Part shown: one piece after another, positions 4,667-61,987 of the stretch | How positions within the stretch are numbered: position 1 is the first letter of the stretch | Layout: each line of letters starts with the position of its first letter | Assembly: GCF_000686025.1 (NCBI RefSeq) | Contig: NZ_JMLQ01000006.1 | Location: forward strand, 124,001 to 188,000 | Direction: 5' to 3' | DNA length: 64,000 bases | From: Rhodococcus sp. UNC23MFCrub1.1 | GTDB taxonomy: Bacteria > Actinomycetota > Actinomycetes > Mycobacteriales > Mycobacteriaceae | Notes under the pieces: generated by a model | The model's input: the letters and a program-made list of their open reading frames with translations, nothing else | Database searches by the model: none | Told to the model about the DNA's origin: nothing | Position numbers and translations under genes: made by a program

Positions 4667-6013
4667 ATGAACGACACGGTAGAGCTGCACCCACCGTCGG
4701 TGGACGAGATACGGCTGTTCACAGCGCGTTTGGGGCTGGTGGAGGACGGCGGGTCGGCGCGGGAAGGAATCGATGCCGTGACGGCCATCGAAGCCCTGAA
4801 GTGCGTGGGCGCGGCGACGCAGGCGGTAGTGACCGCCGGGGTGGCGGCGAGCGTTCGAGCCGATAGGCGTGATCGCGGGCTGCCGAGGAAGCAGTGGGAT
4901 CTCGGGATCGCGTCACAGGTGGGTCTGGCACGTCGCGAGTCACACCGGCGTGGTGGCACATACCTCGGACTCGCACGGGCACTGGTGCACGAGATGCCGT
5001 ACACCCTGCAGTCGATGCGCGAAGGCCGCCTGAGCGAGTACCGCGCGATGCTGCTGGTGCGGGAGACGGCGCACCTCACCGTGGCGGACCGGCGGGAGGT
5101 CGATCGCCGGTTGTGTGCCGACGCCTCGACGTTGGAAGGGAAGGGCGACAAGCAGGTGGTCGCGCTCGCGGTGGCCGCGGCGGTCGAGCTCGATGCCGCG
5201 GCCGTGGTGCGGAGGAACGCGCGTGCGGCTGCGCAGCGCCGCGTGAGCGTGCGTCCGGCTCCGGATTTCATGGGATACGCGACGGCGCTGCTGCCGATGG
5301 ACAAGGCGGTGTGCGTGTACGCCACGTTGCGCCGAGACGCGGACGCGCTCGTCGCAGCCGGCCGTGCCGAGGGTCGAACACGTGATCAGGTGATGGCGGA
5401 CCTGTTGTTCGAGCGCGTGACCGGGGGAGATGCAGCGGCGGGTCCCCCGGTGGCGGTGCAGCTGGTCATGTCCGACGAGTCGTTGCTCGCCGGCGGTGAC
5501 GAGGCCGCGCACGTTCCCGGCTACGGCATGGTTCCCGCCGAAGTGGCCCGCCGTGCGGTGGCCGACCGCATCGACGGCGGGAGTGTCGGTGCGACCCTGC
5601 GGCGGCTCTACGCCGTCCCGTCGACGGGACAGCTCACGGCGATGGACTCGACGGCGCGTGTGTTCCCGGCGGGACTCGGTCACTACATCGACGTCCGCGA
5701 CCGGGCGTGCCGCACACCGTGGTGCGATGCGCCGATCCGACACCACGACCACATACGCCCCTTCAGGTTCGGTGGCCCGACGACGGCGGAGAACGGCATG
5801 GGACTGTGCGCCGCCTGCAATGACGCGAAGGACGCGGAGGGGTGGGAGGCCCAGCGGGTCGTCGAGCACGTCGACGGCGGCCACATCGTCAGATTCCGGA
5901 CGCCGACGGGCCACACCTACGACTCGGCTCCGCCGGCAGTACCGTTGCCGCTTCCCACCACGATGGTGGAGACGCAGCTGTACGAGCTGCTCGTTCAGCG
6001 TCGAGCCGGGTGA
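4667..6013 (+). CDS. DUF222 / HNH endonuclease domain protein (13E12-type)
   Basis: 448 residues. The N-terminal two-thirds is the helical DUF222 region found in the multicopy 13E12 family of mycolic-acid bacteria. Residues about 348-393 form an HNH nuclease fold with two CxxC-like pairs (CRTPWC, CAAC) around HHDHIRPF and GGPTTAENGMGLC. Such proteins are often near or inside mobile DNA, but no repeats or integrase are seen here and base composition looks like the neighbours. The start at 4667 follows a strong GGGGGGAGA ribosome-binding site; an ATG 54 nt earlier lacks one. The C-terminus overlaps the convergent FAD protein by 19 bp. Confidence 0.85.
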   Translation: MNDTVELHPPSVDEIRLFTARLGLVEDGGSAREGIDAVTAIEALKCVGAATQAVVTAGVAASVRADRRDRGLPRKQWDLGIASQVGLARRESHRRGGTYLGLARALVHEMPYTLQSMREGRLSEYRAMLLVRETAHLTVADRREVDRRLCADASTLEGKGDKQVVALAVAAAVELDAAAVVRRNARAAAQRRVSVRPAPDFMGYATALLPMDKAVCVYATLRRDADALVAAGRAEGRTRDQVMADLLFERVTGGDAAAGPPVAVQLVMSDESLLAGGDEAAHVPGYGMVPAEVARRAVADRIDGGSVGATLRRLYAVPSTGQLTAMDSTARVFPAGLGHYIDVRDRACRTPWCDAPIRHHDHIRPFRFGGPTTAENGMGLCAACNDAKDAEGWEAQRVVEHVDGGHIVRFRTPTGHTYDSAPPAVPLPLPTTMVETQLYELLVQRRAG

Positions 6014-7815
6014 GACACAGCACGGTGGCCGGCCACGAGATCCGCGGCGATCGCGTCGTTGTGCCGGAAGAAGCCGGCGTCGATGCCGGGCCGGGCGAAG
6101 GCGCCGGACCAGGCGTGGCCCGCCACCCACATTCCCACCGCGTACCGATGGGGGTGCGCCGTGCCCGATGCGTCGATCACGCGGGACGAGCCGTCGACGG
6201 CCAGTTTGGCCGGACTCGTCGGAGACGCACTCACCTCGCGGACCTCACCGCGCTCGTGCAGCGATCGCAGCAGGGCGTCGGCGCTGCGCGAGATGGACGC
6301 GCTGGGCAGTCGGGCTTCGATGAGCGTCCGCGCTCGCACCACGTCGTGGTGCACGTGCGAGGTCGCCCGGAAGCCGTCACCGTCCGCCTCGAACCGCACC
6401 TCGGGGCCGAGGTAGCGAATGACTCCGGCGCGGCCGAGTGCGAGCAGCTGCTCCAGGCGCTCGGGCGGGGGACCGCTCGCGAGGAAGCTGAAGAAGGAAT
6501 GCAGCTGTCCCTCCACCTGCGACGCGACGTCGTCCGGGCGCAGTCGCTCTGTCCGAACGAGCTCTCCCACAGTCCGATACGCCGACAGCAGGGCCGAGAA
6601 CACGGCGGCGTCCGCGCTGAAGCGGGGGTCGCGCCGTCGTGCCAGGTCTGCCTCGATGTAGCGGTGCACCTGCTCTGCGGCATCGGCCGCTGAGTCGAAT
6701 CGGGCGTGCCGCAGCGGTCGGTCGAGCGTGTCGATGTCGAAGTGGTCCTCGGGATCGGGGACCATTCGTTCGACCAGTTCACCGACTGCACGGGCGCCGT
6801 CACGGCCCAGGGCGGCCTCGAGTTCGATGAACGGCCCGCGGACACGGTCGGGGTGGGAGCGGAACAGCTCGTGATAGTGCGCCCACGCAAGTTCCGCGAC
6901 CGCGAGAGGCCAGACCGCCGTACGGAAGTCGAGCGTCTCCGTCCCGGGAAAAGCCTCGGGTACGAAGAACCTCGGGAGAGGCGGTGCCGCATCGGCGATG
7001 GAGTACGAGATCTTGGCGTGGTACGGAACCCCGCGTCGAGATCCGGCGTACACCAGGGGTTCCCGGCCGGAGGCCGTGTACACCAGGGTGCCGTCACCGG
7101 AGCGCGAGAAGGTGCCGCCGCGTGACTCCGCGAGCAGCACCATCCAGTCGACGAAGGCGAGACCGAGGCCCGAGATCAGGACGGGTTCGGCCTCGGGGAC
7201 CAGCGCCGGATCGAGGTCGGCTGTGTATCCCGGCCCGATGTACCGGAGACCGTGGGTCTCGGCATGGGCGGTGAATGCCTGGACGTCTGCCGGCGGCAGA
7301 GTGTCGGGTTGGCCCTGCGCCAGAACGACATCGGTCACCTCGAGCACGGTGCCGTCGTCGAGGATCAGACGCTGGTGGACACCCCGATCCTCGATGTCGA
7401 CGACGCAGGCCCGGTGCACGTGCACTCGAACACGATCCGGCCGCGCCTTCACCGCGCTCTCGAAGACGTGAGCGAGATAGTGGGACTGCAGCGACCGGGA
7501 CGCGAACGACGACGGGGTGAAACGGAGAATCTCCTCCCGCAGAGCCGGATCCGTGACGAGGGTGTCCCGGTTCGCCGTCACCCACTCCGCGAGGGTGGGA
7601 CCGCCCGACCCGTCGGGCAGCATGGCCACGTCCGCCGCGACGGAGTTCATCCAGAGCAGGGGGTCCTGGTTCCGTCGCCAGATCCGCCCTGCACCCGGCG
7701 GGTGGGGGTCGACGACATGGACGTCGATCGGTTCGGTCAGCTCGTCGGCCCGGCCGACGATCCGCTCGAGGATGCCGGTCGCGCGGGGTCCTCCGCCCAC
7801 GAACGCGATGCTCAC
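5995..7815 (-). CDS. FAD/NAD(P)-binding protein (NAD_binding_9 family)
   Basis: 606 residues. The N-terminus has a Rossmann dinucleotide motif, IAFVGGGPRATGILER, followed by DVHVVDPHPPGAGRIW and a WMNSVAADVAM block typical of this large uncharacterised FAD family; a second nucleotide-binding-like region (VLISGLGLAFVDWMVLL) lies near residue 215. Members may be flavin N-hydroxylase-like or redox proteins, with no known substrate. GTG 7815 is used because it puts the GxGxxG motif at the normal distance; the frame runs 18 codons further upstream without a family match. It is transcribed divergently from fgd, with a 16-bp palindrome in between. Confidence 0.75.
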   Translation of the reverse strand: MSIAFVGGGPRATGILERIVGRADELTEPIDVHVVDPHPPGAGRIWRRNQDPLLWMNSVAADVAMLPDGSGGPTLAEWVTANRDTLVTDPALREEILRFTPSSFASRSLQSHYLAHVFESAVKARPDRVRVHVHRACVVDIEDRGVHQRLILDDGTVLEVTDVVLAQGQPDTLPPADVQAFTAHAETHGLRYIGPGYTADLDPALVPEAEPVLISGLGLAFVDWMVLLAESRGGTFSRSGDGTLVYTASGREPLVYAGSRRGVPYHAKISYSIADAAPPLPRFFVPEAFPGTETLDFRTAVWPLAVAELAWAHYHELFRSHPDRVRGPFIELEAALGRDGARAVGELVERMVPDPEDHFDIDTLDRPLRHARFDSAADAAEQVHRYIEADLARRRDPRFSADAAVFSALLSAYRTVGELVRTERLRPDDVASQVEGQLHSFFSFLASGPPPERLEQLLALGRAGVIRYLGPEVRFEADGDGFRATSHVHHDVVRARTLIEARLPSASISRSADALLRSLHERGEVREVSASPTSPAKLAVDGSSRVIDASGTAHPHRYAVGMWVAGHAWSGAFARPGIDAGFFRHNDAIAADLVAGHRAVSHPARR

Positions 7816-51526: not shown

Positions 51527-51979
51527 TCAGGGTAGTAGGACGTCCACGACGTGCACCGCGACGTCCTCCGCCGTGAGAGCGGTGCCGAGCGTGGTGTTCA
51601 CTGCGTCGGCCGTCCTCCCGGTCAGTGTCACCGCCAGCGCGGCCATGTCCTGGCCGTACGTCACGGCGATGTCCAGGGACACCCCGGTACACCGGCGTCC
51701 GTCGACGTCGAGTTCGATGCCCTTGACCCCGCAGGGCAGTTCCGACAGGGCGCGGGCGATGGACAGGAGCACCAGGTGGTCGCCCACCCGGAGCGAGTCG
51801 CCGTCGACGAAGCCCGGGTGCGAGGCGTCCAGCGCGCGTGTCCGCCGAGCCGTCGCGCGGAGTGCGGCGAGGATCGCCGTGCTGGCCTCGACCCAGGACG
51901 GCACCTCCTCGTCTCGGAGTTCCTGTGCGGCGCGGCTGAGCACGGGATCGTCCGGCTCGTCCGCCGTGTCTAACGCCAT
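51527..51979 (-). CDS. Asp23-like protein with helical N-terminus, next to the ECF sigma gene
   Basis: 150 residues. The C-terminal half reads like an Asp23/Gls24 domain (LDVDGRRCTGVSLDIAVTYGQDMAALAVTLTGRTADAVNTTLGT ... VAVHVVDVLL). The N-terminal 60 residues are a charged helix region (VLSRAAQELRDEEVPSWVEASTAILAALRATARR) absent from plain Asp23 proteins. ATG 51979 overlaps the sigma gene by 10 bp, the position where an ECF anti-sigma factor usually sits, although no zinc anti-sigma motif is seen. Regulation of the sigma factor by this protein is an inference. Confidence 0.6.
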   Translation of the reverse strand: MALDTADEPDDPVLSRAAQELRDEEVPSWVEASTAILAALRATARRTRALDASHPGFVDGDSLRVGDHLVLLSIARALSELPCGVKGIELDVDGRRCTGVSLDIAVTYGQDMAALAVTLTGRTADAVNTTLGTALTAEDVAVHVVDVLLP

Positions 51980-52509
51980 GACGCCATCCTCTCGCTCAGA
52001 GTGGTTCGTGCGCGGGTGACCTGACCGCGCACCGCGGACGGCGACATGGACAGGATCTCCCCGATCTCGACATGAGTCATTCCCTCGACCTCGCGGAGCA
52101 ACCAGCACGAGCGCTGCATCTGTGGCAGTGCCCCGAGGGCCACGCGCAGCTCGGCGAGGAACCCCGATTCCGTCGCCCGCACCTCCGGATCGTCCGACAC
52201 GTCGCTGACGGCGTCGTCGAACAGCCACTCCTCGTGCGGACGGGGGATGCGGCGCCGCGTGGCGTCGATGGCCTTGTGTGCGGTGATGCCGAACAGCCAT
52301 GTGCGCAGCGCCGAGTCGGACCGGTAGTTGCCGAGGCTCTTCCAGGCCGCGACGAACGCGTCCTGGACCACCTCCTCCGCGACGCCGTCGTCACGCAACA
52401 TGTTGCGGGCGTACCGGAACATCGCGGGACCGTGCGTGCGGACGATCTCCTCGAACGCGCCGCGGTCACCGATGACCGCAGCGTCGACGAGAGCCGCATC
52501 GCTGTCCAC
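51970..52509 (-). CDS. ECF-family RNA polymerase sigma factor
   Basis: 179 residues. Sigma region 2 at about 15-85 (YARNMLRDDGVAEEVVQDAFVAAWKSLGNYR, ALRTWLFGITAHKAIDATRRR) and region 4 at about 122-175 (LGALPQMQRSCWLLREVEGMTHVEIGEILSMSPSAVRGQVTRARTTL). GTG 52509 is the first start compatible with the domain. It heads an operon with the Asp23-like, SRPBCC and lipoprotein genes and is divergent from the Asp23/AmaP operon, which it probably controls. Confidence 0.92.
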   Translation of the reverse strand: MDSDAALVDAAVIGDRGAFEEIVRTHGPAMFRYARNMLRDDGVAEEVVQDAFVAAWKSLGNYRSDSALRTWLFGITAHKAIDATRRRIPRPHEEWLFDDAVSDVSDDPEVRATESGFLAELRVALGALPQMQRSCWLLREVEGMTHVEIGEILSMSPSAVRGQVTRARTTLSERMASWR

Positions 52510-52549
52510 GGAGCAGATTCGAACCAGCGGGTGTGAAACGACAGTGGTG

Positions 52550-52574
52550 TGGCATACGTCACATTGGCATACGT
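52550..52574. promoter_or_regulatory. Direct repeats in the sigma/Asp23 divergent promoter
   Basis: Two identical 10-bp TGGCATACGT units start 15 bp apart. On the minus strand GGAAAA-N15-CGTATG, and on the plus strand GAAAC-N17-CGTC, can be read as ECF-type promoters across them. This suggests one control element for both directions. Confidence 0.4.
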
Positions 52575-52631
52575 TTTCCTCGGTCCGCCTCGACCTACTC
52601 CCGACACAACGAACCCGAAAGGATGACGTAG

Positions 52632-53117
52632 ATGACGACAGCACAGGGATCCACCACGTCCACCACCGCCTCCGGCTCGAACGGTGCGCTGGACAAGAAG
52701 ACCGACTCCACCGGTGCACTGGTCGCGTCCGACGGCCGCACCACCATCGCGGACGTCGTCGTGTCCAAGATCGCCGGCATCGCCACCCGTGAGGTCCAGG
52801 GCGTGCACGACGTGGGCGGCGGCGCGACCCGCGCCATCGGTGCACTGCGCGAGCGCATCCCCGGCGCCCGGGTCAACCACTCGCAGGGCGTGTCCGTGGA
52901 GGTCGGCGAGAGCCAGGCAGCCGTCGACATCGACATCGTGGCCGACTACGGCGTGTCCATCGCGGATCTCGCGGCGGGCATCCGTCGCAACGTGATCGAC
53001 GCGGTCGAGCGGATGACCGGCCTGCAGGTCACCGAGGTCAACATCACCGTGCACGACGTCTTCCTGTTCGAGGAAGAAGACGAGCGCGACGACGCAGCAC
53101 CCGCACGCGTTCGATGA
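52632..53117 (+). CDS. Asp23/Gls24 family envelope stress protein
   Basis: 161 residues. After a Ser/Thr/Gly-rich start, the Asp23 domain runs about 38-150: TTIADVVVSKIAGIATREVQGVHDVGGG, GVSVEVGESQAAVDIDIVADYGVSIADLAAGIRRNVIDAVERMTGLQVTEVNITVHDV. In firmicutes Asp23 is a very abundant protein tethered beneath the membrane by AmaP. GAAAGGA precedes ATG 52632. It is the first gene of a six-gene operon, overlapping the next by 4 nt. Confidence 0.92.
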   Translation: MTTAQGSTTSTTASGSNGALDKKTDSTGALVASDGRTTIADVVVSKIAGIATREVQGVHDVGGGATRAIGALRERIPGARVNHSQGVSVEVGESQAAVDIDIVADYGVSIADLAAGIRRNVIDAVERMTGLQVTEVNITVHDVFLFEEEDERDDAAPARVR

Positions 53118-56852: not shown

Positions 56853-57779
56853 GTGAACGATGCGACCGTCCTGCGCTGGTACATCGAGGTCGCCGAGACG
56901 CTCGCGTTCGGGCGCGCGGCGAAGGCGCTGAACATCTCCCGGCTCCGACTGAGTGCCGCGGTCAAGGAACTCCAGGACGAGGTCGGCGAACCCCTGTTCG
57001 TTCCGGGCGACGGGCCCACCGAACTCACCGAGGCCGGACGGGCTCTGCTCGACCGGGCCCGCGACATCGTGGCGGAGGACGATCGCCGCCGCGCCGAGGA
57101 GGCTGCGGCAGCGCCGGCGCGGCCGACGCTGCGGGTCGGTTTCGTTCCGGGAGTGACGGTCACGAAATGGACCCGGATCTGGGCGGATCGCCACCCCGGC
57201 ACCGACCTGCAGACGGTCGTCGTCGAGGAGTCGGACCAGCTCGACGCGCTGCGGACGGGTGTGGTCGACATGTGCTTCGTGCGGGAGCCCGCCGAACGGG
57301 AGGGGCTGCACTGCGTCCCGCTGTACTCCGAGGTCGCCGTCGTGGTGGTGCCCAAGGACCATCCGGCCGCGGCCTACGACGCCGTCACGCTCGGTGATCT
57401 CGAGGGCGAGTCGCTGCAGGACGGCTCCGACCGATCCGAGGCGTCGCTGCCGACGACGCTCGAGATGGTGGCCGCCGGTGTCGGCCCGGTGCTCGTGCCG
57501 CACTCGTTGGCCCGACTGCACAGTCGCAAGGACCTGCTCTACCGGCCCGTCACCGACGCGGACCCCACCCGGATCTTCCTGGCCTGGCCCACATCGGTCG
57601 CCGCACCCGAGGAGGGAACACTCGACCTGCCGCAGGAGTTCCTGGGGGTGGTGCGCGGACGGGCCGCGCACAGCTCGCGTACCGAGTCCGAACGCGGGAC
57701 ACCGCCGAGGAAGAAGAAGAAGGCAGCTGCTCCGGGGCCGGCCGCCAAGCGAAGTCAGGTGCCCCGCCGACGACGCTGA
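56853..57779 (+). CDS. LysR family transcriptional regulator
   Basis: 308 residues. The HTH lies at about 1-60 (LRWYIEVAETLAFGRAAKALNISRLRLSAAVKELQDEVGEPLF) and the effector-binding fold at about 90-270 (LRVGFVPGVTVTKWTRIW, VDMCFVREP, VAVVVVPKDHP). The C-terminal tail is unusual: about 40 basic residues (GTPPRKKKKAAAPGP ... RRRR), a possible non-specific nucleic-acid contact. GTG 56853 has leaderless spacing after TACGCT. The 21-bp repeats and divergent DUF5997 gene form its likely regulatory target. Confidence 0.85.
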   Translation: MNDATVLRWYIEVAETLAFGRAAKALNISRLRLSAAVKELQDEVGEPLFVPGDGPTELTEAGRALLDRARDIVAEDDRRRAEEAAAAPARPTLRVGFVPGVTVTKWTRIWADRHPGTDLQTVVVEESDQLDALRTGVVDMCFVREPAEREGLHCVPLYSEVAVVVVPKDHPAAAYDAVTLGDLEGESLQDGSDRSEASLPTTLEMVAAGVGPVLVPHSLARLHSRKDLLYRPVTDADPTRIFLAWPTSVAAPEEGTLDLPQEFLGVVRGRAAHSSRTESERGTPPRKKKKAAAPGPAAKRSQVPRRRR

Positions 57780-57817: not shown

Positions 57818-59509
57818 GTGAGCGACCCAGCTCCCCGAAGTTCGGCCGGCGCGAGCAAGCCGGCCATCCTCACCGTGGACGACGATCCCGGGGTGTCCCG
57901 CGCCGTCGCCCGCGATCTGCGGCGCAAGTACGGCGAGAAGTACCGCATCATCCGGGCGGAGTCCGGCGAGTCCGCCCTGGAGGCGTTGCGAGAGATCGCG
58001 TTGCGCGGTGACCAGGTCGCGGTATTGCTCGCGGACTACCGCATGCCGTCGATGAGCGGTCTCGAGTTCCTCGAGCAGGCCATGGACATCTTCCCGTTCG
58101 CGCGCCGCGTGCTCCTCACGGCGTACGCGGACACCGACGCCGCCATCGAGGCGATCAATGTCGTCGACCTCGACTACTACCTGCTCAAGCCGTGGGATCC
58201 GCCGGAGGAGAAGCTGTACCCGGTGGTGGACACGCTGCTCGACGCGTGGCACGCCGCCGACATCCGGCCCATCCTGGAGACCAAGATCATCGCGGGTCGG
58301 TGGGCGTCTCGATCGTCGGAGATGCGCGAGTTCCTCGCCCGCAACAGGCTGCCGTACCGGTGGTTCCTCGCGGACGAGCCCGAGGGAGCGCGTCTGTTGG
58401 CGGCGGCGGGTCACGACGATCGCACGCTGCCGGTGGTGGTGTGCGCGGACGGGTCGTGTCTGCTCGACCCCACCGACACCGAGTTGGCCGAGTACTTCGG
58501 TCTGGGCACCACGCCGACGGAGGACTTCTACGACCTCGTCGTCGTGGGCGGCGGGCCCGCCGGCCTGGGCGCGGCCGTCTACGGCGCGTCCGAGGGTCTC
58601 CGGACGGTCCTCGTCGAGCGCACCGCGACGGGTGGGCAGGCGGGCCAGAGCTCGCGCATCGAGAACTACCTCGGTTTCCCGGACGGGGTGTCCGGCGCAC
58701 AGCTGGCCGAGCGTGCACGTCGGCAGGCCGAGAAGTTCGGCGCCGAACTCGTCACCACCCGCGAGGTCGCGGGTGTCGAGGTCGACGGGCCGGCGCGCGT
58801 GGTGCGTCTGACCGACGGCAGTGCGATCGCCGCGCACTCGATCATCCTCGCCACGGGTGTCTCCTACCGCCGGCATCCGGCGCCGGGGGTCGACGAGTTC
58901 GCCGGTCGCGGCGTCTTCTACGGCTCCGCGGTCACCGAGGCGGTCGGCTGTACCGATCAGGACGTGTACATCGTGGGCGGCGCGAACTCCGCCGGTCAGG
59001 CAGCGATGTACCTGTCCAAGTGGGCGCGGTCGGTGACCATCGTGGTGCGCGCCGAGTCGCTGGAAGCCTCCATGTCGTACTACCTCGTGCAGCAGATCGA
59101 GAAGAACCCCGTCATCTCCGTCCGCCCCTGCACCGAGGTGACCGCCGCGCACGGCGACGGCCACCTCGAACAGATCACCCTGCGCGACAAGGTCTCCGGC
59201 GACGAGGAGACCGTCGACACGGGCTACCTGTTCCTCTTCATCGGGGCGGCGCCGCGGACCGAGTGGCTGGACGGCGTGGTGGTGCGCGACCGCCACGGCT
59301 TCGTCGTCTCGGGTCAGGACCTCACGGTCGACGGGGCCCGCCCGCCGGGCTGGTCGGTCGACCGCGCACCGCACCATCTCGAGACCAGCGTGCCCGGCAT
59401 CTTCGCGGCGGGCGACGTGCGCGCGGACTCCGCCAAGCGCGTCGCGTCGGCCGTCGGTGAGGGTGCGATGGCCGTCATGCTCGTCCACCGCTATCTCGCC
59501 CAACCCTGA
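57818..59509 (+). CDS. Receiver domain fused to thioredoxin-reductase-like FAD oxidoreductase
   Basis: 563 residues, cytosolic. REC domain at about 15-140 with acidic pair D21-D22, phosphoacceptor D73 (LLADYRMP), T101 and K124. A thioredoxin/glutaredoxin-like segment follows (about 150-232) with no CxxC. Then a TrxR-like reductase: FAD loop GGGPAG (244-249), ATGVSYR and a second NAD(P)H loop VGGANSAGQAA (386-396). The dithiol CxxC of true TrxR is missing: the region reads RGVFYGSAVTEAVGC, leaving Cys378 alone. It is probably a phosphorylation-controlled redox sensor or enzyme. GTG 57818 follows GGAAAGG. Operon with the kinase and UBP genes. Confidence 0.9.
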   Translation: MSDPAPRSSAGASKPAILTVDDDPGVSRAVARDLRRKYGEKYRIIRAESGESALEALREIALRGDQVAVLLADYRMPSMSGLEFLEQAMDIFPFARRVLLTAYADTDAAIEAINVVDLDYYLLKPWDPPEEKLYPVVDTLLDAWHAADIRPILETKIIAGRWASRSSEMREFLARNRLPYRWFLADEPEGARLLAAAGHDDRTLPVVVCADGSCLLDPTDTELAEYFGLGTTPTEDFYDLVVVGGGPAGLGAAVYGASEGLRTVLVERTATGGQAGQSSRIENYLGFPDGVSGAQLAERARRQAEKFGAELVTTREVAGVEVDGPARVVRLTDGSAIAAHSIILATGVSYRRHPAPGVDEFAGRGVFYGSAVTEAVGCTDQDVYIVGGANSAGQAAMYLSKWARSVTIVVRAESLEASMSYYLVQQIEKNPVISVRPCTEVTAAHGDGHLEQITLRDKVSGDEETVDTGYLFLFIGAAPRTEWLDGVVVRDRHGFVVSGQDLTVDGARPPGWSVDRAPHHLETSVPGIFAAGDVRADSAKRVASAVGEGAMAVMLVHRYLAQP

Positions 59510-59540
59510 CCACCGCACGCGTCCCGGAAGCTGGATCATC

Positions 59541-60995
59541 ATGACCGAACTCGACTGCAGCACCGAGGAACTGAAGACGCTGTTCCTCTTCGAGTCGCTC
59601 GACGACGAGCAGCTCGAGCAACTGTGTGCCAACGGGCACGTGGAGATGATCGAGGCCGGTCCCGTGTTCGCGGAGGGCGACGACGCCACGTGCTTCTACG
59701 TGCTCCTCGACGGGGAACTGGTGCTGACCAAGATGTCCGGCGGCGAGAAGATCGAGGTGAACCGCACGTCGTCGCGGGGCGTCTACGCGGGTGCGTGGCA
59801 GGCGTACCTCGGGGACCGCGCCCCGCAGAAGTACATGTCGGGCATGGACGTGACGCGTCCGTCCCGGTTCTTCGTGCTCGACGCCGAGCGGTTCGGAGAC
59901 CTGGTTCGAGAGTGGTTCCCCATGGCGGTCCACATGCTCGAGGGACTGTTCTTCGGTCAGCAGAGCAGCAAGCAGGTCATCGACCAGCGGGAGCGGTTGC
60001 TGGCGCTGGGGTCGCTGTCGGCCGGTTTGACACATGAGCTGAACAACCCGGCCGCCGCGGCGGTCCGTGCGACGGCGGCGCTGCGGGACCGGGTGTCGCA
60101 CATGCGCCGCAAACTCGGCGTCATCGCGTCGGGCGTCTACGACACCGACTCCCTGACGGGTCTGATCCGCCTGCAGGACGAGGCTGCCGAACTGGTGGGC
60201 AAGGCGCCGGAGCTCACTCCCATGGAGGCCTCCGACCGGGAGGACGCGCTGGGGGAGTGGTTCGAGGACCACGGCATCTCCGACGGGTGGGACCTCGCCC
60301 CGACCTTCGTGCAGGCCGGCATCGAGGCCGACTGGCTCGAGCGCGTCGCCGCGGACACGGGGGCGGAGCTTCTCGAGAGCACGATCCGCTGGCTGAACTA
60401 CACCATCGAGACCGAACTGCTCATGAACGAGATCTCCGACTCCACCACACGGGTGTCGACGCTGGTCAACGCCGCGAAGCAGTACTCGCAGATGGACCGT
60501 GCGCCGTTCCAGAAGGTGGATCTGCGGGTCCTCCTCAAGAGCACCCTGGTGATGCTCGGCCGCAAGATCGGCGACGACATCACGGTGGTCAAGGACTTCG
60601 ACCCGGCGCTGCCTCCCGTCGCGGCGTACGCCGCGGAGCTCAACCAGGTGTGGACCAACCTCATCGACAACGCCGTACAGGCCATGGACGGCCGAGGAAC
60701 GCTCACTCTGCGGACCTCGCGGGAGAACGACACGGCCCTCATCGAGATCGGGGACACCGGCCCGGGCGTTCCCGAGGCGATCCGGTCCCGCATCTTCGAA
60801 CCGTTCTTCACCACCAAGCCCGTGGGCGAGGGCACCGGTCTGGGCCTCGACATCTCGTGGCGGATCGTGGTGAAGAAGCACGGCGGCGACCTACGGTTGC
60901 TGTCGGAGCCGGGAGACACCCGGTTCCAGGTACGGATACCGATCGACGGCCCGGCCGGGGCGCCGATGCCGACCGCAGAGGAGGAAGTCGGATGA
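59541..60995 (+). CDS. Soluble histidine kinase with N-terminal cNMP-binding-like domain
   Basis: 484 residues without membrane helices. An N-terminal CRP/cNMP-type beta-roll (about 12-135: LFLFESLDDEQLEQLCANGHVEMIEAG, FYVLLDGELVLTK) has no clear Arg-phosphate pocket, so the ligand is uncertain. The kinase core follows: phosphoacceptor His165 in LTHELNNPAAAAV, N box NQVWTNLIDNAVQAM, G1 EIGDTGPGVP, F box FEPFFTTK and G2 GEGTGLGLDIS. It is the natural partner of the receiver-TrxR protein, 31 nt upstream. It overlaps the UBP gene by 4 nt. Confidence 0.9.
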   Translation: MTELDCSTEELKTLFLFESLDDEQLEQLCANGHVEMIEAGPVFAEGDDATCFYVLLDGELVLTKMSGGEKIEVNRTSSRGVYAGAWQAYLGDRAPQKYMSGMDVTRPSRFFVLDAERFGDLVREWFPMAVHMLEGLFFGQQSSKQVIDQRERLLALGSLSAGLTHELNNPAAAAVRATAALRDRVSHMRRKLGVIASGVYDTDSLTGLIRLQDEAAELVGKAPELTPMEASDREDALGEWFEDHGISDGWDLAPTFVQAGIEADWLERVAADTGAELLESTIRWLNYTIETELLMNEISDSTTRVSTLVNAAKQYSQMDRAPFQKVDLRVLLKSTLVMLGRKIGDDITVVKDFDPALPPVAAYAAELNQVWTNLIDNAVQAMDGRGTLTLRTSRENDTALIEIGDTGPGVPEAIRSRIFEPFFTTKPVGEGTGLGLDISWRIVVKKHGGDLRLLSEPGDTRFQVRIPIDGPAGAPMPTAEEEVG

Positions 60996-61336
60996 GCACG
61001 AACGGAATCGACACCGCGGTACCGCCCAGCGGCACGGGCTGCGTGGAGTGCGACGCCACCGACGGGTGGTGGGTGCACCTGCGCCGGTGCGCTCAGTGCG
61101 GCCACGTCGGATGCTGTGACTCCTCACCGTCGCAGCACGCGAGTGCCCATGCCGCGACCAGCGGTCATCCCGTCGTGCAGTCGTTCGAACCCGGGGAGAC
61201 GTGGTTCTGGAACTACGTCACCGAGGAGGGCTTCGACGGTCCCGAACTCAGTGCGCCACAGCATCATCCGATGGACCAGACGGTGCCCGGACCGTCGTCT
61301 CGGGTCCCCTGGGACTGGCAGCGTCACGTCCGCTGA
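60992..61336 (+). CDS. UBP-type zinc finger protein
   Basis: 114 residues. The zinc-finger UBP fold is clear: C17-x2-C20, C33-x2-C36 (CAQCGHVGCC), Cys41/Cys42 and His49, His53, His59, followed by FEPGETWFWNYV. In eukaryotes this fold binds the free Gly-Gly end of ubiquitin. Bacteria that carry it lack ubiquitin, so its ligand here is unknown. ATG 60992 overlaps the kinase stop. Its place in a phosphorelay operon suggests a regulatory adaptor or redox/zinc sensor. Confidence 0.88.
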   Translation: MSTNGIDTAVPPSGTGCVECDATDGWWVHLRRCAQCGHVGCCDSSPSQHASAHAATSGHPVVQSFEPGETWFWNYVTEEGFDGPELSAPQHHPMDQTVPGPSSRVPWDWQRHVR

Positions 61337-61444: not shown

Positions 61445-61987
61445 GTGTCGTTCATCCCCACCTCGTCCTTCTTCTCCAACGCCACGCGCTCGGATCGAAG
61501 TTCCTCTCGTGCAACGCGATTCGGTGCAGCAGTCGCGGTCGGCGCCACCATCGCCGCAGGGGCGATCCTCGGTACCGGGGTGGCGTCCGCGGCTCCGGTC
61601 ACCTGCGTGTCCCCGCCCGCGGCCAACGACATCCAGGTGAGCGACACGGCCAGCTGCGGAGCCAAGGCCACCGGCGCCGGCGTCGCCACGTCGTCGGCGT
61701 CCGAGAGCGGTACCGCGGTCAGCGTCGCCGACGGCGGGCGCTCGACGTCGAACGCCACCGGCTTCGGCACCGCGCTGAGTGCCGTTCTGGGAGCGGGTAC
61801 CTCGTACTCGTACTCCCTCGGTGGTGGCATCTCGCAGTCCTTCGCCACGAACGGAGCCACCTCCGTCGCCATCGCCGGGTACGGCGGCGGCGCGACGGCC
61901 AGCACGGTCACGGGCGTGAACTGCGCCGGTCTCAACTCCTTCGCTCTCGACCTCTCCACCGGGCGGTCCTGCATCGCCGGTCTGTAA
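61445..61987 (+). CDS. Secreted Gly/Ser/Thr-rich protein (DUF6764-like)
   Basis: 180 residues. A signal peptide (about 20-52: RFGAAVAVGATIAAGAILGTGVASA-AP, cleavage AxA) exports it. The mature part is small-residue-rich with alternating Ser/Thr/Gly stretches (ASESGTAVSVADGGRSTSNATGFG), likely beta-solenoid-like or extended, and four cysteines that may form two bridges (about 58, 72, 160, 176). The function is unknown. GTG 61445 follows AGGAG; an earlier ATG at 61412 lacks a site. Confidence 0.72.
   Translation: MSFIPTSSFFSNATRSDRSSSRATRFGAAVAVGATIAAGAILGTGVASAAPVTCVSPPAANDIQVSDTASCGAKATGAGVATSSASESGTAVSVADGGRSTSNATGFGTALSAVLGAGTSYSYSLGGGISQSFATNGATSVAIAGYGGGATASTVTGVNCAGLNSFALDLSTGRSCIAGL

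Follow-up and report, generated by a model that had tools for sequence, protein, structure and literature searches.

A three-gene locus encoding a response-regulator receiver (REC) fused to a thioredoxin reductase (TrxR)-like flavoprotein, a histidine kinase, and a UBP zinc-finger (zf-UBP) protein was analyzed in Rhodococcus sp. UNC23MFCrub1.1, within a 64,000-nucleotide (nt) stretch of contig NZ_JMLQ01000006.1 (positions 124,001 to 188,000; hereafter the window). On balance, we lean toward interpreting this locus as a two-component system with a flavoprotein output instead of a transcription factor, in which the phosphorylated receiver would switch a flavoprotein that lacks dithiol chemistry of its own. 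An earlier note on this DNA, written from its letters and open reading frames, had described the three genes and proposed that the kinase phosphorylates the receiver to switch flavin redox activity; the observation is confirmed with one domain having been missed, and the interpretation is partly supported.

The three genes lie on the forward strand at window positions 57818-61336, and their coordinates were confirmed; domains were assigned with Pfam unless stated otherwise:

57818..59509, + strand: fusion of a REC domain, a degenerate glutaredoxin-like domain and a TrxR-like flavoprotein; 563 amino acids, GTG start
57866..58204, + strand: receiver domain (fusion residues 17-129); PF00072 Response_reg, 50.2 bits, over the Pfam cut-off
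58280..58504, + strand: glutaredoxin-like domain (fusion residues ~155-229), CxxC replaced by A163 and S166; identified by profile A5 and hhalign
58529..59464, + strand: TrxR-like domain pair for flavin adenine dinucleotide (FAD) (fusion residues 238-549); Pyr_redox_2, 118.3 bits, over the Pfam cut-off
59541..60995, + strand: histidine kinase with an N-terminal domain resembling cyclic nucleotide-binding (CNB) domains and with His165; 484 amino acids, ATG start; HATPase_c at residues 365-468, 81.4 bits, over the cut-off
60992..61336, + strand: zf-UBP protein (P0002); 114 amino acids; zf-UBP, 52.8 bits, over the Pfam cut-off

A gap of 31 nt separates the fusion from the kinase gene, as had been noted; the "4" of the reported 4-31 nt spacing is an overlap of the kinase and zf-UBP genes (ATGA) and not a gap.

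Pairing of the kinase with the receiver-flavoprotein

The kinase and the receiver-flavoprotein look like a cognate pair, judging from their co-occurrence in genomes. Among 149 Actinomycetota genomes, the fusion was found in 17 (E <= 1e-150) and the kinase in 18 (E <= 1e-60), including all 17 that carry the fusion, which places the kinase in 17/17 fusion-bearing genomes and in 1/132 of the others (Fisher p 1.9e-21). At 19 of the 21 fusion loci in these genomes the kinase is encoded directly downstream, with 3-35 nt between the matched segments, and both exceptions are in a single genome (G102) and are among the six members with a diverged receiver. An order-wide survey of close loci, drawn from 40 other genomes of the order with a close match, recovered the pair at 21/21 fetched loci, not counting the broken locus L017 and the diverged, kinase-less same-order loci L030-L032. 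At L017 (genome G015, positions 5001-5923) the fusion is broken and the kinase match is gone, with fusion and zinc-finger remnants side by side. At L016 (genome G022, positions 5001-6655), which is one of the 21, the fusion match is split over two frames, by a frameshift or a sequencing error, and kinase and zinc-finger matches adjoin it.

The arrangement extends well beyond the order. The best 80 of at least 589 confirmed relatives from a scan of species genomes come, by record title, from Acidobacteriota, Cyanobacteriota, Chloroflexota, Verrucomicrobiota, Deinococcota, Pseudomonadota, Actinomycetota, and one Nitrososphaeraceae metagenome-assembled genome, although this archaeal occurrence could be a binning error. 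At 59 of these 80 loci the kinase gene follows the fusion on the same strand at a distance of no more than 400 nt, and at 11 it is elsewhere in the fetched stretch. Because the fusion and the kinase are found together across phyla, the arrangement is more than chance.

The receiver residues follow the same pattern. D21, D22, D73, T101, and K124 are all intact in the window fusion, and D73, T101, and K124, which had been listed as intact beforehand, are invariant in alignment A1 (18 sequences gathered by protein search) and in alignment A3 (54 sequences), where the conservation of T101 and K124, but not that of D73, arises partly by construction because the search pattern includes both. Two receiver motifs that include T101 and K124 had served to collect loci L100-L179. 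At loci collected independently of such motifs, with L016, L078, and L142 set aside for an incomplete receiver, the kinase was found within 1 kb in 42/42 cases with D73, T101, and K124 all intact and in 0/6 with one or more of them changed (p 8e-8, a value that is overstated given the relatedness of the sequences and the placement of all six in a single supported group). This joint loss fits a kinase that serves this receiver, and it is highly probable that the kinase acts on it. The pairing proposed in the earlier note thus agrees with the counts from genomes (17/17), from loci (19/21 and 59/80), and from altered receivers (0/6).

The kinase itself has the residues required by this assignment. 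His165 and the ATP-site residues N377, G407, G433, L434, G435, and L436 are invariant in sets of 14 and 33 kinases, and D405 is invariant in the larger set and nearly so in the smaller, in line with the His165 and full ATP site that had been described. The H-box pattern H[ED][LM]NNP is present in the window kinase and fits 105 of 118 related kinases; the HisKA match itself (16.8 bits) falls below the Pfam cut-off of 26.9. The input domain is less well described by its earlier name. "cNMP-domain kinase" (for cyclic nucleoside monophosphate) overstates a cNMP_binding (PF00027) match of 19.2 bits against a cut-off of 27.5, which the relatives L072, L173, and L127 pass. A phosphate-binding cassette with an Arg is a motif of CNB domains of the type that binds cyclic AMP (cAMP). 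In a regular-expression test, the corresponding pattern GE..PR.A occurred in 2/118 kinases and not in the window kinase, and with PF00027 also below its cut-off, the candidate reading of a cAMP-sensing kinase was rejected. Two or three CNB-like kinases are encoded near one fusion at ten loci, with three in tandem beside a single receiver-flavoprotein gene at L067, L127, and L133, which suggests that several inputs converge on one output.

A flavoprotein core without its cysteine pairs

The putative output domain of the system resembles an oxidoreductase and not a DNA-binding domain (Pyr_redox_2, 118.3 bits). Between receiver and flavoprotein lies the domain that had been missed. Profile A5, built from the middle domains of 24 relatives, matches the glutaredoxin Rv3198.1 (PDB 2lqo; which we take to be mycoredoxin-1) with an E value of 1.4e-9, its best match of solved structure, as well as other glutaredoxins; aligned by hhalign with the glutaredoxin domain of L041, a relative retaining both cysteine pairs, the middle-domain profile scored 98.5%. 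Pfam alone is weak here, with PF00462 matched by 14 of the 24 profile members at E <= 1 (best 2.3e-4) and not by the window's own copy, and the assignment of the middle domain to the glutaredoxin fold family is made by profile.

Cysteine pairs are missing at both sites where they would be expected. The two CxxC columns of the glutaredoxin-like domain are mostly Ser (47/54 and 37/54 sequences). We also counted residues in 128 receiver-type homologues, a set from which 11 receiver-less loci, including the CxxC-bearing L041 and L043, were removed first and which excludes L001-L013 (from the window's own genome, or short segments belonging to near relatives). Irrespective of alignment register, no CxxC occurs in the glutaredoxin-like domain of any of the 128, and any Cys at all occurs there in four. 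Nor does a CxxC occur near the TrxR active site in the window protein or in any of the 128, and of 143 collected TrxR-like domains the CxxC pattern fits only those of L041 and of the own-genome thioredoxin reductase TrxB (L043). The lone Cys378 that had been remarked on near this site is indeed present in the window protein, but it is conserved in only 106/128 homologues, and E374, in the column of the Asp that follows the lost CxxC, is kept in 123/128. Because both cysteine pairs are gone, an electron relay from FAD through a dithiol to glutaredoxin would not be possible inside the fusion, and we regard such a relay as almost certainly absent.

The nucleotide-binding sites have changed to different degrees. 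HRRxxxR is the motif by which thioredoxin reductase binds NADPH (reduced nicotinamide adenine dinucleotide phosphate). Compared with the own-genome TrxB, the motif is reduced to one Arg (R411, present in 127/128), the next position being Gly or Ala in 117/128, and GxGxxA has become GxAxxA in 115/128, with GxGxxA in 13. The GxGxxG and C-terminal GD motifs for FAD are kept in alignments A1 and A3, and the fusion probably binds FAD. The altered NADPH-binding residues, like the glutaredoxin-like domain and the weakness of the cNMP label, had gone unnoticed before.

The best NCBIfam and PDB matches of the fusion are thioredoxin reductases, which would invite the reading that two-component control acts here on an ordinary thioredoxin reductase or an AhpF-like enzyme. 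Against it, CxxC is missing in both places in 128/128 homologues and the curated cut-offs are missed by far (TIGR01292 for thioredoxin reductase, 226.5 bits versus 343.45; TIGR03140 for AhpF, 164.3 versus 502.9), so that this reading is refuted at the level of sequence and we give it almost no credence. The earlier statement that loss of the CxxC sets the protein apart from ordinary thioredoxin reductases is thereby upheld.

The same losses could instead mean that the TrxR-like core is a catalytically dead sensor of redox state or nucleotides, the receiver being a phosphate sink that feeds back on the kinase and the output lying elsewhere. The disappearance of both cysteine pairs, the single remaining Arg of the NADPH motif, and the prevalent change to GxAxxA would all suit such a sensor. 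Strong conservation of the FAD motifs speaks against it, as do fusions of a CNB domain to the same core, which lack a receiver for feedback and around which the fetched stretch shows no kinase of this type, and we consider it unlikely.

These CNB fusions were placed in a midpoint-rooted tree of 62 TrxR-like domains that included only two CxxC rows and 44 of 122 receiver-type rows and left out L047, L142, and L016. All 60 CxxC-less rows are found on the same side of a 100/100 branch; some of them carry a receiver, others a CNB domain, and the rest neither. The CNB fusions make up a single clade (100/97) next to a receiver-bearing row, and a separate clade consists of receiver-less glutaredoxin–TrxR proteins. 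The same CxxC-less core can therefore have either a receiver or a CNB domain at its N-terminal input position, or no input domain at all.

The UBP zinc-finger protein

The zf-UBP protein is a frequent but non-universal companion of this flavoprotein family, and a role as a partner is likely from its distribution. The earlier note had proposed a neighborhood survey, with rare co-occurrence of the three genes to count against its reading. At the 21 close same-order loci the kinase–flavoprotein pair holds throughout, and the trio gives a mixed picture, with the zinc finger directly after the kinase at 13, elsewhere in the stretch at three, and not in the stretch at five. On plasmids of Tsukamurella and Streptomyces it also directly follows the kinase. 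Among the best 80 of at least 589 relatives, a zf-UBP gene lies somewhere in the stretch at 11 and directly after the kinase at seven (L101, L102, L106, L121, L126, L162, and L165), and at L072 the domain is fused to the kinase. In the 149 Actinomycetota genomes, zf-UBP was found in 21 of the 28 with any such flavoprotein and in 10 of the 121 without one (p 1.6e-12). Among the 17 fusion-bearing genomes it was found anywhere in 11 and next to or fused to the kinase in five; it was not found in the remaining six and is therefore not an obligate part.

Nor is zf-UBP tied to the receiver, since it is likewise found with relatives that carry a CNB domain or lack an input domain. Such REC-less relatives were found with the fusion (P0001) as query, and seven loci were fetched of the 12 genomes having one. 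At five of these seven CxxC-less loci (L033, L038, L040, L042, and L046), zf-UBP is encoded beside a flavoprotein gene or no more than about 1 kb from it, on the opposite strand at L040 and beside only one of two flavoprotein copies at L033; it was not seen near the flavoprotein at L039 and at the fragment L047.

A less favored possibility is that the zf-UBP gene is an unrelated neighbor from another process and that the system consists of the first two genes only. Of 39 zf-UBP matches, 30 lie farther than 3 kb from any TrxR-like gene or kinase, many of them on contigs with neither, and some zf-UBPs are fused to Na+/H+ exchangers. The genome-level association, the fusion to a kinase, and adjacency recurring in Actinomycetota, Acidobacteriota, Betaproteobacteria, and Cyanobacteriota argue against this view, which we hold to be rather doubtful. 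In the exchangers the domain is at the C-terminus (L098 4974-7202, - strand; L056 4204-6237, + strand), and L056 also has a TrkA_N domain.

The window's zf-UBP protein is the single such match in its own genome. Its zinc finger is complete, as had been stated: in 65 sequences (matches above 60 bits that cover the domain), the likely zinc ligands C17, C20, C33, C36, C41, H49, H53, and H59 are invariant, and so is an extra Cys42, which creates a vicinal Cys41-Cys42 pair. An Arg-Tyr pair holds the C-terminal carboxylate of ubiquitin in HDAC6 and USP5. In P0002, S44-S45 occupy the aligned position of the USP49 Arg-Tyr, and among the 65 sequences Arg never occurs in column 44 and Ser fills column 45 throughout; with Arg-Tyr missing in 65/65, the protein was rejected as a ubiquitin reader, and binding of a ubiquitin-like tail in the known manner is unlikely. 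The tail of P0002 (residues 85-114, window 61244-61333) resembles that of L084 by eye (HP.DQ.VPGP...VP.DW) and is possibly a partner-binding segment. That the protein binds the flavoprotein or the kinase we judge about as likely as not.

Dithiol chemistry might persist if the dithiol were supplied in trans, with Cys41-Cys42 of zf-UBP or a thioredoxin meeting the flavin directly. The invariance of C41 and C42 in 65/65 zf-UBP sequences and the retention of E374 in 123/128 homologues would agree with this idea, as would the trxA gene directly before the UBP and CNB–TrxR genes at two plasmid loci and the thioredoxin-domain and DsbA-family genes that precede a Gloeocapsa relative (CxxC-bearing or not). 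Several of the zf-UBP cysteines are, however, expected to bind zinc, Cys378 is kept in only 106/128 homologues, and six of the 17 fusion-bearing genomes have no zf-UBP match, and we consider supply in trans improbable.

Proposed mechanism

In the two-component interpretation, the kinase would sense a cytosolic ligand through its CNB-like domain, though not cAMP in the usual way, autophosphorylate on His165, and hand the phosphate to D73. The phosphorylated receiver might then act through the dead glutaredoxin-like domain on the behavior of the bound flavin, the resulting change being either electron transfer to a non-thiol acceptor (oxygen, a quinone, or a partner protein) or altered partner binding, with the zf-UBP protein as an optional subunit or adaptor of the flavoprotein family. 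That the receiver regulates the flavoprotein is probable. As a tentative extension, which we advance with considerable reserve, proteins of this kind may be widespread response regulators with a cysteine-less flavin-switch output, derived from a TrxR–glutaredoxin protein that gave up its two dithiols and retained the FAD site. Gating would come from phosphorylation where a receiver is paired with a CNB-like kinase and from a directly bound ligand where a CNB domain is fused, the UBP finger being a partner for a non-ubiquitin purpose that possibly gives thiols to the flavin in trans.

Several observations weigh against the two-component interpretation. At ten of the 80 best loci the stretch lacks such a kinase (contig ends cut two of these ten), and nine of the ten keep D73, T101, and K124, so that the pairing rule is not absolute. 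The six sequences with changed receivers form one clade (99/94), and the co-loss of receiver residues and kinase may accordingly be one event; D73 is changed in four of the six and kept in two. The zf-UBP match is missing from the six fusion-bearing Actinomycetota genomes mentioned above, and only 9 of the 39 matches have a TrxR-like gene or kinase within 3 kb. Some REC-less relatives adjoin trxA or a DsbA-family gene, a hint of dithiol substrates. Finally, the stress setting discussed below rests on a handful of neighborhoods.

Genomic neighborhood

Stress survival is the likely setting of the system, as inferred from the neighbors of some relatives, which include genes for a universal stress protein, a starvation-protection protein, and LtrA (six loci). 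When heuristically called neighboring genes from as many as 112 loci were clustered, no family beyond the kinase and zf-UBP recurred in more than seven loci; the families recovered included, beside LtrA, sugar-breakdown enzymes in a few loci. The gene order dnaK-grpE-dnaJ-cbpM-clpB-trxA-UBP-CNB/TrxR is shared by a plasmid of Rhodococcus sp. PD04 and one of Streptomyces angustmyceticus (L055 1-7927; L182 1-7296), an arrangement like that of a mobile stress-tolerance locus.

Around the trio itself, a LysR gene lies upstream (56856-57779). Its close relatives among the searched loci were confined to L034, L035, L014, and L017, all of the same genus (L003-L005 being shorter copies of three of these loci), and it was set aside as a member of the trio on this ground. 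A sigma-70-type sigma factor gene (- strand) and an Asp23-family gene (+ strand) are found farther upstream at 51970-53117. Directly 3' of the trio is a gene for a DUF6764 protein (61448-61987), which had matches close to the trio at four related loci, the broken L017 among them.

Comparison with known systems

Two-component systems and the REC–TrxR architecture are known; unusual here is the proposed enzymatic or flavin-switch output. The enzymatic outputs known for two-component systems are chiefly cyclic-di-GMP enzymes, methylesterases, and phosphatases. If the interpretation is true, a thiol-free, phosphorylation-gated flavoprotein would let a cytosolic kinase signal directly to cellular redox, bypassing transcription, the labels "thioredoxin-disulfide reductase" and "cyclic nucleotide" on such proteins would need correcting, and the bacterial UBP finger would gain a functional context.

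The combination of REC and thioredoxin reductase, the same domain pair as in the window fusion, appears as a "Mycobacterium-like" response-regulator architecture in a published census (PMC5847659). The portions of that census available to us mention no glutaredoxin-like domain, CxxC loss, paired CNB-like kinase, or zf-UBP partner, and the terms "cnmp" and "zf-ubp" have 0 occurrences in its main text. Among the matches listed by a literature search, to which subscription papers were mostly out of reach, there was no functional study of REC–TrxR, of CNB–TrxR, or of bacterial zf-UBP with TrxR. The transmissible locus of stress tolerance (PMC8290217) groups chaperones, a thioredoxin, and a K+/H+ antiporter on mobile DNA and offers an analogy for some of the relatives; the available part of its description includes no receiver-flavoprotein pair, and "UBP" has 0 occurrences in it.

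At the level of single proteins, the bacterial-type zf-UBP structure PDB 2ida, listed only as "Hypothetical protein", matches residues 5-95 of P0002 (E 2e-24). The middle domain of the window fusion differs from glutaredoxin Rv3198.1 (2lqo) in having both active-site cysteines replaced. The core is like the low-molecular-weight thioredoxin reductase TrxB and AhpF in its fold, as predicted from sequence, and in its FAD motifs; unlike them, the fusion has no CxxC, has lost most of HRRxxxR, and carries extra N-terminal domains. A further group is that of CNB proteins annotated by NCBI as thioredoxin-disulfide reductases (for example, H12, H18, and H78), whose examined members share the CxxC-less glutaredoxin–TrxR core. 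Annotation places a zf-UBP gene next to H18 and next to H78 (the latter found by zf-UBP search) and none next to H12. No kinase gene is annotated directly beside these CNB-type reductases, which have a fused CNB domain as input where the window protein has a receiver.

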